From Nitrospirota bacterium (GTDB taxonomy: Bacteria; Nitrospirota; Nitrospiria; JACQBW01): 56,472 bases of DNA. The position numbers and the translations under genes are program-made. This document shows, one piece after another, positions 20,450 through 26,761 of the stretch; the stretch's first letter is position 1, and each line of letters begins with the position of its first letter. The stretch is from positions 1 through 56,472 of the forward strand of contig JACQBW010000030.1 in the NCBI GenBank assembly GCA_016194305.1, read 5' to 3'. The notes under the pieces were generated by a model. It had not been told where the DNA came from and made no database searches. It saw only the letters and a list, made by a program, of their open reading frames with translations.

Positions 20450-21178
20450 TTAAGAAGAGGCAATTCCAACTTCATCTGGTGAAATAGGTCTGAATTCTCC
20501 TGGTTTAAGCTCTCCGAGTTCAAGTTTTCCAATTCGTATTCGAACCAGATTTTCAACCCGGCAGCCCAAATGTTCAAATGACTTGCGAATCTGGCGATTC
20601 TTACCTTCTTCGAGGGTCAATTCAAGCCAGCAAGACTTTTTATTTTCCCTTATTTTCTCAATATTTATAGGCAGATAGGATAGTTTGTCAGAGAGTTTAA
20701 GCCCTTTGCTGATTTTGAAAATCTCTTCTTCTTTTATAGATCGATTTACTTTGACGTGATAAGTCTTGGGAAGTTTGGAAACCGGGGAGACAATTTTATC
20801 GGCCCAGGCCGTATCGTTCGTGAGCAAAAGGAGACCCGAGCTTTCTTTATCGAGTCTCCCCACAGGAAATATCCAGGAAAATTCGGAATGAAGGAGATCG
20901 TAGACAGTCTTCCTCCCTTTTTCGTCACTTCTTGTTGTCACGATCCCTTTTGGTTTATGCATCATGTAATACACCTTTTTGGCGTTCGTCGCTTTTTGAT
21001 TGTAAATGAACAGATTTTGAATGGGGAATTCTACGGAATATTCGGGATCCCGGATGATTTTGTTCCCGATTCTCACTTTTCCTGAAATGATCATTTCTGC
21101 CGCGACGGTTCGGGAAGCGATCCCCATTTTTGACAGGGCTCGTGACAATTCTGCTTTTTTCTTTGGGAAGGATCTCAC
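20450..21178 (-). CDS. Ribosomal pseudouridine synthase, RsuA/RluB/RluF family
   Basis: 242 aa. An N-terminal S4 RNA-binding domain (LSRALSKMGIASRTVAAEMI, VRIGN) precedes the catalytic domain with GRLDKESSGLLLLTND; Asp110 is the nucleophile. The C-terminal GKNRQIRKSFEHLG is the RluB/E/F-type motif. It isomerises a uridine in rRNA (RluB-like 23S or RsuA-like 16S; not resolved). It is divergent from bcsA, with a 77-bp gap. Confidence 0.9.
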   Translation of the reverse strand: MRSFPKKKAELSRALSKMGIASRTVAAEMIISGKVRIGNKIIRDPEYSVEFPIQNLFIYNQKATNAKKVYYMMHKPKGIVTTRSDEKGRKTVYDLLHSEFSWIFPVGRLDKESSGLLLLTNDTAWADKIVSPVSKLPKTYHVKVNRSIKEEEIFKISKGLKLSDKLSYLPINIEKIRENKKSCWLELTLEEGKNRQIRKSFEHLGCRVENLVRIRIGKLELGELKPGEFRPISPDEVGIASS

Positions 21179-21241
21179 GTGAGGAGTTTAACACAGGACA
21201 GAACAAGTTGGGAGCCGATAACAGCAGGATTTTTTAAATTT

Positions 21242-21258
21242 GCTACAATTTAAGCATG
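21242..21258 (+). promoter_or_regulatory. Extended -10 promoter abutting the bcsA start
   Basis: TG-C-TACAAT (TG at 21242-21243 via 21241 onward, -10 21244-21249) followed by 6 nt and the ATG at 21256. No matching -35 and no Shine-Dalgarno is visible, so transcription would start at or next to the A of the ATG. Confidence 0.55.
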
Positions 21259-23619
21259 ATAAATATGCTTAATATACCAGGGTATCCATTTCTGCTTTCT
21301 ATCATCTTAATTTTACTGGCGATTTTACTGACTCACCAAGAGGTCTATTCTGAAAAAATCAAATGGATCGTCATGCTCGTTTCTCTCTTTGCGGGGGGGC
21401 GGTATCTCTACTGGCGATGGGCTTACACGATTAACAGGGAAGACCCTCTTAGCGGAGCAATAAGCTGGATCGTCTATGGCGCTGAAATTTACGGTTTCAT
21501 TTCGGTAGTATTATTTTATCTTCAGATTGGCAAACCGGTCACTCATCAGGCAAAACCTCCGAAGGATGAGGACTTTCCTCGCGTTGATATTTTTGTCACC
21601 ATTTTTGATGAATCTCTCGACATTTTATATAAAACGCTTGTCGGGTGCACTTCCCTTGATTACCCTCCTCACCTTCTCCGCATTTATGTCCTGGATGATG
21701 GATATCGCCCTGGTGTCAGGGCGATGAGTAATGAGCTCGGGTGTCAATATTTAAGCCGTCCGAATCGCAAAGACGCAAAAGCTGGAAATCTCAATTACGG
21801 TCTGGCCCATTCGTCCGGGGAGTTTATCATGGTGCTGGATTGTGATCACATTCCTGTGCGGTCCTTTTTGAAAGAAACATTGGGTTTCTTTAAAGATGAA
21901 AAGGTTGCTTTGGTTCAGACTCCACATTATTTCTACAATCCCGATACCTTTCAGCGCAATTTAAGATTAGAGAGAGAAATCGTTAACGAACAGGATCTGT
22001 TTTTCTATGTGATTCAACCGGGAAAGGATCGTCATAATGCCAGTTTCTATGCCGGAAGCGGAGCTGTTTTTCGCCGGACTCCACTCGAAAAAATCGGAGG
22101 TATTCAGACTAAAACTTTGACAGAAGATCTTCATACCAGCATGGTTCTTCATTCGAAAGGATTTAAATCGATATATCTCAATAAAATCCTTGCAGCCGGT
22201 CTGGCCCCAGAGAGCTACAGGAGTTACTTAAAGCAGCGGCAACGGTGGACTCGCGGGGGAGTTCAGGTCTTTCTAATGGATAATCCAATCTGGAAATGGG
22301 GTCTTTCGTTTATGCAAAGACTGAATTATCTCGGATCGATTCTCTATTTTTTCCATGGATGGGCCCGATTAATCTATCTGGTTGCCCCGCTTTCTTACTT
22401 GCTGCTCGGTCGAGCTCCTCTTACTGCGGCTGTCCCGGACTTGTTAAATTTCTATCTGCCTTACTACCTCATAGGATTGATGGCATTTAATCGAGTCAGT
22501 CTCGGTTATCGTAGTTCATTCTGGTCCGATATGTATGAAACGGTCATGTGTTTTTTTATCAGTTGGACGGCATTTGCAACGTTTTTCAGTCCGAAAAAAA
22601 ATACTTTCTTTGTAACACCAAAGGGAATTCAATTTTCGGAAACAAAATTAGACTGGTCCATGGTTGTGCCACATCTTATTGTAGGACTATTGCTGGTCGC
22701 CGGGTTAGGTGTCGGAGGATACAAAGCCGTTTATGGAGAAATCAATCGTGATGCCGCTCTATTGAGCGGATTTTGGACTCTTTACAATCTCATTGTGATC
22801 ATAGGTGCCATTGTCTTGGCAAGGGAGCAGCTTCAAAATAGGACTTCATCGCGTATTTTCAGGTCAATAAAATGTGAAATAAGTATTGGGAAACGCGTCA
22901 TAAACGGCATGACGACTGATTTGAGCGAGACGGGATTGTCAATGGTGTCGAAGGAAGATCCGCAGCTCTTTTTCCCTGCAGAGGAAAAAATCAGGTTGGT
23001 CCACAATTCTCCAAAATCTCAACGTCCAGCCTTCAGACTGTCACTTCCTCCTGACGCCCGGATTAAGCTTGTCGGAGAACTTGGAGAGACGACCGAGCTA
23101 AAAGGAGAAGTGATCCGGTATGATTTTCTTCCAACTGGAGAAGTGAGTATCGGTATACGATTTTTACAAATAGCCGGTCCTCAGCGTCAGAGTTTGATCC
23201 GTCAGATCTATTGTTTTCCAGGTTTTTGGCAAGAGAATCATCGGAAATCGGCAAAAAGTTTCAGATCGCTAGGTTTTATGGTATCTTCTCCATTTCGAAC
23301 ATTTATCAAGGAGAAGATCATTCGAAGATTGTCTCCGAGACTTCCGAGAAAGTTCAAATGTGAAGTGAAAGTGGGCGATCGAACCTTTAAAGGAGAAACC
23401 GAAGACATCAGTTATCAAGGTGTTTCTCTTCGATTGTCAAGCAGGGAAATATTAAAAAGAAATGTGGAGTTGTTGCTCTACAATCGATCGATCATATTTC
23501 GAACCCAGGGTGAAATTGTTCACTGTTCCAAGGTGAGCGGGAAGGGCCTCATTTATGGTGTCCGTTTCCTTTCGCGTCAGGATCCCGAACTAGCTCTGTT
23601 TTTGTCAAAAAAATTTTAG
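21256..23619 (+). CDS. bcsA: Cellulose synthase catalytic subunit (BcsA-like) with two PilZ domains
   Basis: 787 aa. TM segments flank a family 2 GT core with DDG (147-149), DCD (195-197), TED (289-291) and QRQRW (327-331), followed by the gating-loop motif FFVTPKG (451-457). This is the full processive beta-glucan synthase set. A first PilZ domain follows the last TM (RTSSR 529-533, DLSETG 555-560). A second PilZ domain lies at the C-terminus (RLSPR 691-695, DISYQG 717-722). Both keep RxxxR and DxSxxG, so c-di-GMP should control synthesis. bcsG follows 29 bp later. No BcsB partner is encoded in the window. Confidence 0.92.
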   Translation: MINMLNIPGYPFLLSIILILLAILLTHQEVYSEKIKWIVMLVSLFAGGRYLYWRWAYTINREDPLSGAISWIVYGAEIYGFISVVLFYLQIGKPVTHQAKPPKDEDFPRVDIFVTIFDESLDILYKTLVGCTSLDYPPHLLRIYVLDDGYRPGVRAMSNELGCQYLSRPNRKDAKAGNLNYGLAHSSGEFIMVLDCDHIPVRSFLKETLGFFKDEKVALVQTPHYFYNPDTFQRNLRLEREIVNEQDLFFYVIQPGKDRHNASFYAGSGAVFRRTPLEKIGGIQTKTLTEDLHTSMVLHSKGFKSIYLNKILAAGLAPESYRSYLKQRQRWTRGGVQVFLMDNPIWKWGLSFMQRLNYLGSILYFFHGWARLIYLVAPLSYLLLGRAPLTAAVPDLLNFYLPYYLIGLMAFNRVSLGYRSSFWSDMYETVMCFFISWTAFATFFSPKKNTFFVTPKGIQFSETKLDWSMVVPHLIVGLLLVAGLGVGGYKAVYGEINRDAALLSGFWTLYNLIVIIGAIVLAREQLQNRTSSRIFRSIKCEISIGKRVINGMTTDLSETGLSMVSKEDPQLFFPAEEKIRLVHNSPKSQRPAFRLSLPPDARIKLVGELGETTELKGEVIRYDFLPTGEVSIGIRFLQIAGPQRQSLIRQIYCFPGFWQENHRKSAKSFRSLGFMVSSPFRTFIKEKIIRRLSPRLPRKFKCEVKVGDRTFKGETEDISYQGVSLRLSSREILKRNVELLLYNRSIIFRTQGEIVHCSKVSGKGLIYGVRFLSRQDPELALFLSKKF

Positions 23620-23648
23620 TCCAGAAATGAAATACGGGTATTTTATTA

Positions 23649-25160
23649 ATGGGAATGTGGAATTTCTATTTTTTCTTAAAGTACTATCTTTTTTATAAGA
23701 GTATTATCCAGATTCATTTCTTATTAAACCTACTCCTTCTAATTTTCCTTATTATTCCTGTTCCGGAGGGATTTAAAAAGAGAAGTGAGCTAAATGCAAT
23801 AAAGCTTGTCGTAAGTCTTTTTTTGGCGCTCCTTTTGTTATGGTACGATTCCTGGCTCCCTTCCTTCAAGAAGGTATTAGATTTTATCTTCGATGAAGGG
23901 ATTCCTTTAAAAGAGTACCTCATACAATTTTCACACGGTTTTTTAAATTTGATGGAAATGACAATAATAGGTGCGATTTTGCTCATTTGTTTTATCGCCT
24001 ATCGCAAAGAAATTCGCATCACGCCAATCTCATTGATTCTGTTGCTCACGGTTCCGTTGCAAAGTTACCATCATGAATTCAGCGACAAATCAGATAGGGC
24101 CAGAGCTCAAATTTTTGATGCAGACTTAAAAAAATCCATCCATTTTGTTGGGCCCGTTATAAACGGAGACGGTGAAGACATTATGATTTTGCATGTTTGT
24201 TCGCTCTCGTGGGATGACCTCAAAGAGGTGGGCCTGGATAAAGATCCCTTTTTCAACCAATATGATATTCTGATGACCCAATTTAATGGAGTAACATCCT
24301 ACAGTGGGCCATCAGCCATCAGGCTTTTGCGAGCGAACTGTGGACAAGTTCCCCATCAATCTCTTTATCAAAATGTTCCAGAAGAATGCTATCTATTTTC
24401 TGCTCTTCAATCTGTTGGTTTTACGGAAAATGCCATCATGAATCATGATGGAGTTTACGGTCATTTTTCAAAGGAAATTCAGGAGCTCGGGCATTTGGTA
24501 TCTCCCCAGATACCCAGTGACCTGCCGGTCCAGGCCTATAATTTTGACGGATCTGCAATATATGATGATTTTGCAGTTCTTGATAAATGGTGGAAGGAAA
24601 GGCAAGAAAACCCTTCGAGACAGGTGGCAGTGTATTACAATACCATTTCTCTTCATGATGGTGCCCATTTTAAGGATGAAAATGAATGGTGGAAACACGA
24701 TCGAAAGGAACGATATCGATCCGCGGTGTCAAAGCTTTTTTCGGATTTGGAGAGATTTTATCAATTAGTTGAGTCAACAAATAGAAGAGGGATAATTCTG
24801 TTTGTGCCTGAACATGGTATGGCTTTAAGGGGAAGCAGGATCCAGGTGGCAGGCTTGAGAGAAATTCCACTGCCTCAAATAACCACCGTTCCTGTGGGGA
24901 TCAAATATTTCGGGATCAAAAAATCCCATCGGGATATTCAACCCTTAATCGTTTCAAAGCCGGTCAGCTATTTGGCGCTCTCGTTCCTGATTTCTCAATT
25001 CATCAAGACTGGCCTAAACGATACTGATGCAAGTCAGATTCCAGAAACCGACTTTATGTCAGAAAATGATGGAGCCAAAGTGGTCAAGTATGAAGGAGAA
25101 TTCTATATAAACGCGAAAGACAAACAATGGAAAAAGCTCACGTCGGAACAGATGAATTAG
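23649..25160 (+). CDS. bcsG: Cellulose phosphoethanolamine transferase BcsG
   Basis: 503 aa. The N-terminus (GMWNFYFFLKYY) and four to five TM segments up to about residue 138 match BcsG, followed by a periplasmic alkaline-phosphatase-fold domain. The catalytic set known from E. coli BcsG can be placed by spacing: C184 (HVCSLSWDD), S219 nucleophile (SYSGPSAIRLLRANCGQ), disulfide C231-C247, and E388-H389 (VPEHG). It transfers phosphoethanolamine from a phospholipid to cellulose on the periplasmic face. Its presence argues that the neighbouring synthase makes cellulose rather than another glucan. Confidence 0.93.
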   Translation: MGMWNFYFFLKYYLFYKSIIQIHFLLNLLLLIFLIIPVPEGFKKRSELNAIKLVVSLFLALLLLWYDSWLPSFKKVLDFIFDEGIPLKEYLIQFSHGFLNLMEMTIIGAILLICFIAYRKEIRITPISLILLLTVPLQSYHHEFSDKSDRARAQIFDADLKKSIHFVGPVINGDGEDIMILHVCSLSWDDLKEVGLDKDPFFNQYDILMTQFNGVTSYSGPSAIRLLRANCGQVPHQSLYQNVPEECYLFSALQSVGFTENAIMNHDGVYGHFSKEIQELGHLVSPQIPSDLPVQAYNFDGSAIYDDFAVLDKWWKERQENPSRQVAVYYNTISLHDGAHFKDENEWWKHDRKERYRSAVSKLFSDLERFYQLVESTNRRGIILFVPEHGMALRGSRIQVAGLREIPLPQITTVPVGIKYFGIKKSHRDIQPLIVSKPVSYLALSFLISQFIKTGLNDTDASQIPETDFMSENDGAKVVKYEGEFYINAKDKQWKKLTSEQMN

Positions 25161-25180
25161 TTTGATAAAAGGAGAAGAAT

Positions 25181-25948
25181 GTGGATTTGCCTAATATGAA
25201 AAATCTTGTCGCACTTTGCGTAATTTTTTTCTTAAACTCCTTTGTCGCCTGGGGATATGAGGCGCTCCCGGGTTCCACATGGGGTCAAATCAGTCACGAT
25301 GATGACACCCTTGTCGGAAACGGAACGATGGGATATATCAATCAAGGAATAGACTGGACGACCCTTCCTGGCGGAATAAAGTTTAATACATTTGGCGAAG
25401 TGCGTTACCGATTCCGAAGCGAAAACAGGGCTTATTATAATACCTATGGTGAAGCCCTCGGACTGGAATTTAAGAAATCGATATTTCACCTGGGAGCCGA
25501 TTATGTTTGGGAGACTTATCCTGAATTGTCAGACCATTCGAACAAAGTGCAATATTACTTAACCTGGTTCTATGATTGGGATCTCCAAAAGAAAAGAACG
25601 ACCGGAACTAAGGGATTCCCCGGTGCATTCTGGGGCACGGTGACCCATGACGTAGACAGTCTGGTTGGAACCGGAACAATGGGATATGTCAATCAGGGAA
25701 TCGACTGGACGACTCTTCCGGGAGGGGTTATTTTCAATACCTTTGCCGAGGCCCGATGGCGCTTTCGAAGCGAAAACAGGGACTACTTTGACGCCTATAG
25801 CGAAGCGGCGGGGGTCGAATTTAAGAAATCAGCTTTTCATCTGGGGATAGACTATCTCTGGGAAAAATATCCAGATTTAAATGACTATTCAGACAAACTT
25901 CAATTTTATCTTACCTGGTATACCGACTGGAATTTAAAGCCAAAATAA
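25181..25948 (+). CDS. Secreted protein of two tandem ~105-aa repeats, third gene of the cellulose cluster
   Basis: 255 aa from GTG 25181, with AAAAGGAG 6 nt upstream (ATG 25196 is an alternative). A signal peptide spans about 6-25. Two repeats, offset by 117 residues, start at STWGQISHDDDTLVG (32) and AFWGTVTHDVDSLVG (149). Both contain TMGY-I/V-NQGIDWTTLPGG, RFRSENR, GLEFKKS/GVEFKKS, FHLG-DY-WE-YP-L-D and end in YLTW-x2-DW. Alternating hydrophobic/aromatic strands suggest a beta structure, perhaps outer-membrane or periplasmic. I recognise no named family. Position 20 bp after bcsG suggests a role in export or anchoring of modified cellulose. Confidence 0.8.
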   Translation: MDLPNMKNLVALCVIFFLNSFVAWGYEALPGSTWGQISHDDDTLVGNGTMGYINQGIDWTTLPGGIKFNTFGEVRYRFRSENRAYYNTYGEALGLEFKKSIFHLGADYVWETYPELSDHSNKVQYYLTWFYDWDLQKKRTTGTKGFPGAFWGTVTHDVDSLVGTGTMGYVNQGIDWTTLPGGVIFNTFAEARWRFRSENRDYFDAYSEAAGVEFKKSAFHLGIDYLWEKYPDLNDYSDKLQFYLTWYTDWNLKPK

Positions 25949-26191: not shown

Positions 26192-26340
26192 CGGGGGGAT
26201 TGAAATTTCTTTTAGCATGTTCTAAAACGCAGAATTAATGGAACTGGGCGACAACCACCTCGCTTGCGGGGCGAAGCGGGTCTCTTTACCCAGCGGAGCT
26301 ATTATTTGGTAGTTAAGAGATAGAAATTCAGTTAAAAAAA

Positions 26341-26422
26341 GCCGAAGTGGTGGAACTGGTAGACACGCACGTTTGAGGGGCGTGTGGGGCAACCCGTGGG
26401 GGTTCAAATCCCCCCTTCGGCA
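26341..26422 (+). tRNA. tRNA-Leu (anticodon GAG)
   Basis: The acceptor stem GCCGAAG pairs with CTTCGGC, the discriminator is A, and CCA is not encoded. The anticodon loop reads TTGAGGG, so the anticodon is GAG, decoding CTC/CTT. The long variable arm typical of tRNA-Leu and the T loop TTCAAAT are present. Confidence 0.95.
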
Positions 26423-26464
26423 TCCTTGTTTTTCTTTGAATTCGATAGTGGAGTTTCCTCCCAT

Positions 26465-26761
26465 TTACCCACCGGCTATGGCTCCTACGATGATAAATGG
26501 CTCTGCGCCACAGGCCACCTTGTCGGGTAGCAGAGCGTCCGGAGATTCGAAAGACAGATCTTCCCCGCATGTAAAAAATCGGAGAAAGGGTCGGCGCTGC
26601 TGAGTGGTATGTTCACGAATTGTTCCTGCCAGCATTGGGTATTGCGCTTCGAGCGCATCAAGGATTGAACGCTGAGTAACGAGTCCCTTCACATTAAGTT
26701 GAACTTCTCCATCGGTTTTCGCTAGCGTTCGCAAATGATAGGGAAGTACAATCCGGATCAT
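26465..26761 (-). CDS. MoaD/ThiS-like ubiquitin-fold protein ending in Gly-Gly
   Basis: 98 aa from ATG 26761, whose ATGA overlaps the stop of the BNR gene (4 bp). It starts [14 protein letters not shown], has the [17 protein letters not shown] helix typical of MoaD, and ends exactly in AIAGG before the stop. The terminal GG is the site that MoeB/ThiF-type enzymes adenylate before sulfur transfer or conjugation. No such activating enzyme is nearby. It contains one Cys in the [19 protein letters not shown] region. Function with the BNR partner is unknown. Confidence 0.8.

Follow-up and report, generated by a model that had tools for sequence, protein, structure and literature searches.

Cellulose synthesis in bacteria is held to require BcsB, or at least its tail anchor, for synthase activity. 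In Escherichia coli this anchor sits in a groove formed by TM helices 1-3 of BcsA and is the sole part of BcsB required in vitro (PMC11470070); a BcsA N-terminal domain of about 140 residues recruits the phosphoethanolamine transferase BcsG (PMC11379886). BcsA-like synthases working without BcsB have been described, namely the cyanobacterial XcsA, which has an HlyD partner ('type IV'; PMC12430437), and BgsA, which makes a mixed-linkage glucan (PMC5567048). Systems devoid of BcsC are also known, in alphaproteobacterial and type III operons (PMC7112194, PMC11470070). The literature searched, the coverage of which is incomplete, contained no account of a BcsG locus devoid of BcsB.

The window analysed here, a stretch of 56,472 nucleotides, is an entire contig of a draft genome of a Nitrospirota bacterium (2.27 Mb, 37 contigs, 95% complete). 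A sequence-only reading had described at 21256-25948 a bcsA-bcsG pair followed by a third, secreted gene; the three same-strand open reading frames were confirmed (Table 1), with gaps of 29 nt between the bcsA-like gene and bcsG, and of 20 nt between bcsG and the third gene, hereafter gene 3. They form an isolated operon, flanked upstream by a divergent gene on the minus strand (20450-21178) and downstream of gene 3 by minus-strand ORFs; none of BcsE, BcsF, BcsQ and BcsR is encoded within the operon itself. The favoured reading, to which a probability of about 0.6 is assigned, is that the operon encodes a BcsB-independent, c-di-GMP-controlled beta-glucan synthase acting together with a phosphoethanolamine transferase, and that the polymer is exported via a compact gene 3 barrel, which would replace the barrel of BcsC.

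Table 1. Position of the operon genes and of their domains within the window
Feature	Position	Strand	Basis
BcsA-like GT2 synthase, 787 aa: three N-terminal TM helices, GT2, C-terminal TMs, two PilZ	21256..23619	+	ORF, profile matches, motifs
Synthase, first TM helix (residues 9-25), equivalent to TM2 of E. coli BcsA	21280..21330	+	hydropathy scan, PDB alignment
Synthase, PilZ 1, RxxxR (RTSSR) and DxSxxG (DLSETG), limits approximate	22837..23220	+	Pfam, motifs
Synthase, PilZ 2, extra, C-terminal, RLSPR ... DISYQG (residues 690-776)	23323..23583	+	Pfam
bcsG (503 aa), phosphoethanolamine transferase with conserved catalytic residues	23649..25160	+	Pfam, NCBIfam, structure alignment
Gene 3, 255 aa, secreted beta protein with two repeats, outer-membrane barrel by prediction	25181..25948	+	repeats, AF2, Foldseek, columns
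Gene 3, predicted signal peptide	25181..25258	+	sequence; helix 6-22 in AF2 model
Gene 3, repeat 1 plus linker, six strands	25262..25612	+	repeat alignment, AF2
Gene 3, repeat 2, six strands; identity to repeat 1 is 73/111	25613..25945	+	repeat alignment, AF2

The synthase contains the motifs LDDG, DCDH, TED, QxxRW, FxVTxK, RxxxR and DxSxxG, and thus carries both the catalytic motifs (D, DxD, TED, QxxRW, FxVTxK) and the PilZ domain found in members of canonical Bcs systems. Since its score against TIGR03030, 592 bits, lies below the cut-off of 699, it is designated as BcsA-like and not as canonical BcsA. By hydropathy and sequence reading only, three TM helices precede the GT domain, whereas four are found, by the same means, in E. 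coli BcsA and in the BcsB-type BcsAs of Nitrospirota-like loci. Alignment to the PDB structure pairs residue 22 with residue 185 of E. coli BcsA, and TM1 is absent; a longer N-terminus is ruled out by an in-frame stop at 21235, upstream of the start. Beginning at the TM2 equivalent, the protein also lacks the E. coli-type N-terminal domain for BcsG recruitment. At its other end, two PilZ domains are present, as in several synthases from loci without BcsB (L061, L071, L073, L074, L076), while the BcsB-type BcsAs tested against Pfam show one PilZ match each.

The N-terminus varies among relatives. Hydropathy and reading of the sequences indicate two N-terminal TM helices in many of their synthases; others have three together with a further hydrophobic stretch at the N-terminus, set apart from them, or with a segment of signal type and TPRs. 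Periplasmic-type TPRs are fused to the synthase N-terminus in two genomes (G157 and G265). The window operon encodes no periplasmic scaffold; in relatives, TPRs are joined either to the synthase or to gene 3.

The second gene matches PF11658 with 455 bits, scores above the TIGR03368 cut-off and aligns with the solved structures of BcsG. Residues C184, S219, H336, E388 and H389 correspond to C243, S278, H396, E442 and H443 of the E. coli enzyme and are conserved, so that, on sequence grounds, its identification as BcsG is certain. The motifs of the synthase and these five aligned residues bear out the initial claim that both enzymes retain all their catalytic residues. Relative to type II systems, the window thus holds a BcsG with conserved catalytic residues, and no BcsG-recruiting domain on the synthase. 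bcsG was detected in 15 of 396 genomes of the phylum. In one genome (G223) a bcsG fragment occurs without an adjoining synthase, which is the kind of remnant expected if loci of this type were decaying cellulose operons. For the window locus such an origin is very improbable: its three genes are intact and tightly spaced, their catalytic motifs are conserved, and the bcsA-bcsG-gene 3 order is preserved in the f7 relatives, in which synthase and gene 3 show about 59-61% identity.

The absence of adjacent bcsB, bcsC and bcsZ, pointed out in the sequence-only reading, was found to extend to the whole genome. Profile searches, in each of which the E. coli positive control was detected, gave no match in the window genome (95% complete draft) for BcsB, even at E<=10, for the BCSC_C barrel (PF05420) or for GH8, the domain of BcsZ. 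The search for bcsB and bcsC elsewhere in the genome had been set beforehand as a check of that reading, and neither was found. Nor was BcsB detected above the cut-off in nine further genomes (up to 99% complete) in which the BcsG locus is intact. When the search was relaxed to E<=10 over 14 genomes, sub-threshold scraps appeared in three only, and a hidden BcsB was rejected for the window genome, where nothing was returned. Among the 15 BcsG genomes, BcsB is present in three (G005, G118 and G146), which also contain GH8, with a short match in G146; GH8 is absent from the other twelve. A draft in 37 contigs leaves room for BcsB and BcsC within the unassembled 5% of the genome. This explanation is nevertheless highly improbable, as the same absence recurs in the nine other intact-locus genomes, and as the synthase is devoid of the docking helix for BcsB and belongs to a phylogenetically distinct lineage.

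The latter point derives from a tree in which sequences from E. coli, Enterobacter, Cereibacter, Sinorhizobium, Caballeronia, Nitrospirota and 'Deltaproteobacteria' were sampled, and HlyD-type synthases were added. Eleven BcsAs regarded as BcsB-type are united in a single clade (support 100/99), which excludes the window synthase; an adjoining BcsB was seen for ten of them, and none was detected for Sinorhizobium L102 in the part of the sequence read. Outside this clade fall the window synthase and 16 further synthases associated with gene 3, in a group of eight, which includes the window (100/99), and in a second group of nine (100/100). A first tree, built with fewer outgroups, separated synthases with and without BcsB at 100/99. 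The union of the two gene-3-associated groups, relative to the rhizobial HlyD-type synthases, is supported at only 61/42, and a single origin of the gene-3 synthases is for this reason not established. The window synthase is thus neither within the BcsB-type clade nor above the TIGR03030 cut-off, and BcsB, likewise part of a canonical Bcs system, is missing from its genome. The initial description as a BcsA without BcsB stands as to the absence of BcsB, but not as a simple loss; a BcsA that recently lost BcsB is not favoured, given the position of the synthase outside the BcsB clade.

The same position bears on the nature of the product. The synthase could make another beta-glucan, for instance a mixed-linkage 1,3;1,4 polymer, which BcsG would then decorate; this would be compatible with an export role of gene 3. 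Such a product would fit the score below the TIGR03030 cut-off, the precedent of BgsA and a deepest-level split from the rhizobial HlyD-type synthases that is not firm. It is considered unlikely, though still to be reckoned with, as the operon contains BcsG, a known cellulose phosphoethanolamine transferase, the group of eight is separated with firm support from the BgsA type, and the window synthase is, by tblastn, about 37% identical to true BcsAs, against about 30-35% for rhizobial synthases of the HlyD type.

The BcsG tree is discordant with that of the synthases, and its deep part is poorly supported. The BcsG of G146, encoded in a BcsB-containing operon, groups with those of BcsB-less loci featuring a '470-aa membrane protein' (100/99), which suggests, at the sequence level, that bcsG, perhaps together with gene 3, may have passed between synthase types.

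Gene 3 encodes a protein which begins with an N-terminal hydrophobic segment, followed by two closely similar repeats of about 110 aa, in keeping with its description as a secreted repeat protein. No match above the Pfam cut-off and none in NCBIfam was obtained, in agreement with its supposed novelty; it is, however, not a single new gene, but part of a family distributed over several phyla. The protein has no PF05420 match, and the window copy has no TPR, two features of the BcsC exporter. An AF2 model, based on eight sequences (pLDDT 87, pTM 0.76), shows one helix of signal type and, in each repeat, six strands, 12 in total, with lengths of 11-17 residues. The Foldseek PDB matches listed for it are outer-membrane barrels, including BrkA, invasin, EspP, OmpG, NanC and PgaA (4y25); among these matches listed, E-values are down to 1.7e-6, with a query TM-score of only about 0.27-0.43. 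Alignment columns within the strands alternate between hydrophobic and polar residues, with conserved N, E, R, D and Q on one face; conserved W and Y are also found in the strands of the family, and the C-terminus lacks the usual terminal Phe/Trp beta-signal. From these models, the outer-membrane barrel reading has fair support for the two-repeat members. For a single-repeat member, AF2 produced six strands at low confidence (pLDDT 72), and Foldseek returned no confident match. Single-repeat members may need to oligomerise in order to form a barrel.

Of 296 genomes surveyed in the phylum, 17 contain homologues of gene 3. In 16 of these 17 the homologue adjoins a synthase of the BcsA/GT2 type or shares its operon, whether or not bcsG is present as well. 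The exception is G064, where the family member has no synthase neighbour; at locus L083 the member adjoins ATPase-subunit-like genes. Several arrangements were observed. The order bcsA-bcsG-gene 3 is found in the window and in L056-L059, and bcsA-gene 3 with a divergent bcsG in L061 and L064. In L063, L066 and L069 the order is bcsA-'470-aa membrane protein'-gene 3-bcsG; the same order occurs without an adjoining bcsG in L084 and L086-L088, and L085 and L094 are partial. Four loci (L071-L074) contain bcsA-gene 3 without bcsG. Gene 3 is also present in operons with BcsB and BcsZ (L060, L065, L077, L082), and therefore it does not replace BcsB: L060/L079, from one genome, show the order bcsA-bcsB-bcsZ-bcsG-gene 3, while in L065 and L082 bcsA-bcsB-bcsZ is followed by a gene for a protein made of TPRs and, at its end, two gene-3 repeats, and then by bcsG (fusion gene: L065 12587-15775; L082 6919-9360). 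The TPRs of the L082 fusion were confirmed by Pfam, and the BCSC_C barrel was not found in G118, the genome of L065.

Gene 3 was detected in 10 of 13 BcsG genomes and in 7 of 283 others (Fisher p=4e-12, not corrected for relatedness), on the assumption, suggested by the handles, that all 296 genomes of the gene 3 survey are among the 396 of the BcsG survey. The expected conservation with bcsG is thus real, but gene 3 follows the synthase more generally: several gene-3/synthase loci have no adjoining bcsG, and a role mainly as a BcsG partner was rejected. Judged by gene 3, the named organisms nearest to the window genome are metagenome bins of Nitrospirota; among named organisms, the family is found in bins deposited as Nitrospirota, Nitrospinota, Krumholzibacteriota, Deltaproteobacteria, Elusimicrobia and UBP1. 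No relatives were found in viral contigs, and no gene 3 relatives in plasmids.

The TPR fusion places the gene-3 repeats in the slot of the BcsC barrel and, in combination with the predicted barrel, speaks for a function in export. The early suggestion that gene 3 could replace part of the export machinery is retained as a putative role in the place of the BcsC barrel. Gene 3 might instead be a periplasmic or outer-membrane accessory, which by glucan binding, anchoring or shielding would hold the polymer at the cell surface, while export would proceed via a general pore, for example TolC, together with an HlyD-like adaptor whose gene lies elsewhere. Rhizobial BcsB-less BcsA-like synthases were indeed found together with HlyD-type genes, and the cyanobacterial ones also use HlyD-type partners (PMC12430437); the TM-scores of gene 3 to barrels are weak, and the six strands of single-repeat members are too few for an ordinary monomeric barrel. 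The 12 barrel-type strands predicted for two-repeat members and the C-terminal fusion to TPRs in two operons argue against an accessory function, which is regarded as rather improbable.

Under the favoured, barrel-export reading, we infer the following for the activity of the operon, its product, and the outer-membrane location and export role of gene 3. An inner-membrane GT2 synthase, activated by c-di-GMP through its two PilZ domains, would polymerise a beta-glucan, most likely cellulose, and thread the chain across the inner membrane without BcsB. BcsG would dock on the synthase by means other than the E. coli N-terminal domain, and add phosphoethanolamine to the emerging chain in the periplasm. 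The two joined repeats of gene 3 would form a small 12-strand outer-membrane barrel, and the chain would exit through or with it, the barrel doing the job of the C-terminal barrel of BcsC. This reading is weakened by the low TM-scores, the poor single-repeat model, the missing beta-signal, the small width of a 12-strand barrel and the family members of G064 and L083. More tentatively, gene 3 might represent a new, portable family of export barrels, built from repeats and sited in the outer membrane, which would serve synthase-dependent polysaccharides whether or not the synthase depends on BcsB, and in which the TPR fusion would be an alternative 'BcsC' and single-repeat forms would be six-strand subunits that assemble; three genes would then suffice for the synthesis and secretion of a phosphoethanolamine-glucan.

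A BcsG-containing lineage without BcsB, BCSC_C and one helix of the N-terminal docking groove offers a natural test of the role of BcsB, and the operon is a candidate for a very small system that would produce phosphoethanolamine cellulose. The gene-3 family has so far no name in Pfam or NCBIfam; it would mark export loci in Nitrospirota and in other, mostly uncultured phyla. Within an incomplete coverage of the literature, and relative to the Pfam and NCBIfam libraries, what appears to be new is the occurrence of BcsG in a BcsB-less locus, together with the gene-3 family.

With the E. coli type II system (BcsRQABEFGZC) the operon shares a GT2/PilZ synthase, the BcsG phosphoethanolamine transferase and c-di-GMP motifs; it differs in being devoid of the BcsB crown, BcsC and BcsZ, in the addition of gene 3, and in a synthase with three instead of four N-terminal TM helices, a second PilZ domain and no BcsG-recruiting domain. 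Type III systems (Rhodobacter, Agrobacterium) are similar in that the BcsC barrel is often absent, but they keep BcsB, often have BcsK, and contain no BcsG (PMC11470070). In the XcsA/HlyD and BgsA/HlyD systems the place of gene 3 is taken by an adaptor of the HlyD type, joined by TolC in the model for cyanobacteria, and BcsG is absent. The NfrB-NfrA system of E. coli (NGR) also pairs a BcsA-like, c-di-GMP-dependent synthase with an outer-membrane barrel (PMC8669472), but there c-di-GMP is sensed by a MshEN-like domain rather than by PilZ, BcsG is absent and NfrA combines TPRs with a 16-strand barrel. Relative to BcsC, PgaA and NfrA, gene 3 is akin through the fusion of its repeats to TPRs in the BcsC slot (L065, L082) and through PgaA being among its Foldseek matches, but it is built from two six-strand repeats, about 220 aa in all, and not from a 16-strand domain; the TPR part is missing in the window, and the predicted 12-strand barrel would be narrower than those of PgaA and NfrA, which have 16 strands.

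In one sub-family of the relatives, the synthase is separated from gene 3 by a conserved hydrophobic protein of ~470 aa, possibly a second glycosyltransferase; Pfam gives no match for it or its relatives. In both operons in which a TPR domain is fused to gene-3 repeats, bcsA is separated from bcsB by an additional gene, encoding 331-353 aa, the L082 copy of which weakly matches DHHA1.

The BcsA-type synthases of two bcsA-gene 3 loci without bcsG carry a TPR domain and an N-terminal signal-type segment ahead of the first TM helix. A protein of 1156 aa matches both BcsA and BcsZ, an apparent synthase-cellulase fusion.

A diverged second homologue of gene 3, made up of one repeat only, is present in the genome of the window, adjoining a GT2 of 367 aa which is not a BcsA. 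Downstream of the window operon, the minus-strand ORFs overlapping a tRNA gene are probably spurious.

The BcsG proteins of L063, L066 and L069 carry Thr, not Ser, where E. coli BcsG has its nucleophile, S278.

Coordinates of the features (L, loci of relatives; G, genomes; C, contigs)
Feature	Location	Remark
~470-aa hydrophobic protein	L063:3122-4564	relatives in L066, L069, L084-L088, L094
TPR-fused BcsA-type synthases	L073:7485-10490; L074:8539-11580	
BcsA + BcsZ protein	L096:6064-9534	G119:C22
331-353-aa inserted gene	L065:8127-9122; L082:2539-3600	
Single-repeat gene-3 homologue	L070:8856-9335	G000:C1:86858-87238
GT2	L070:9308-10411	
tRNA-Leu(gag)	window 26341-26422	directly downstream of operon
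Minus-strand ORFs	window 26222-26570
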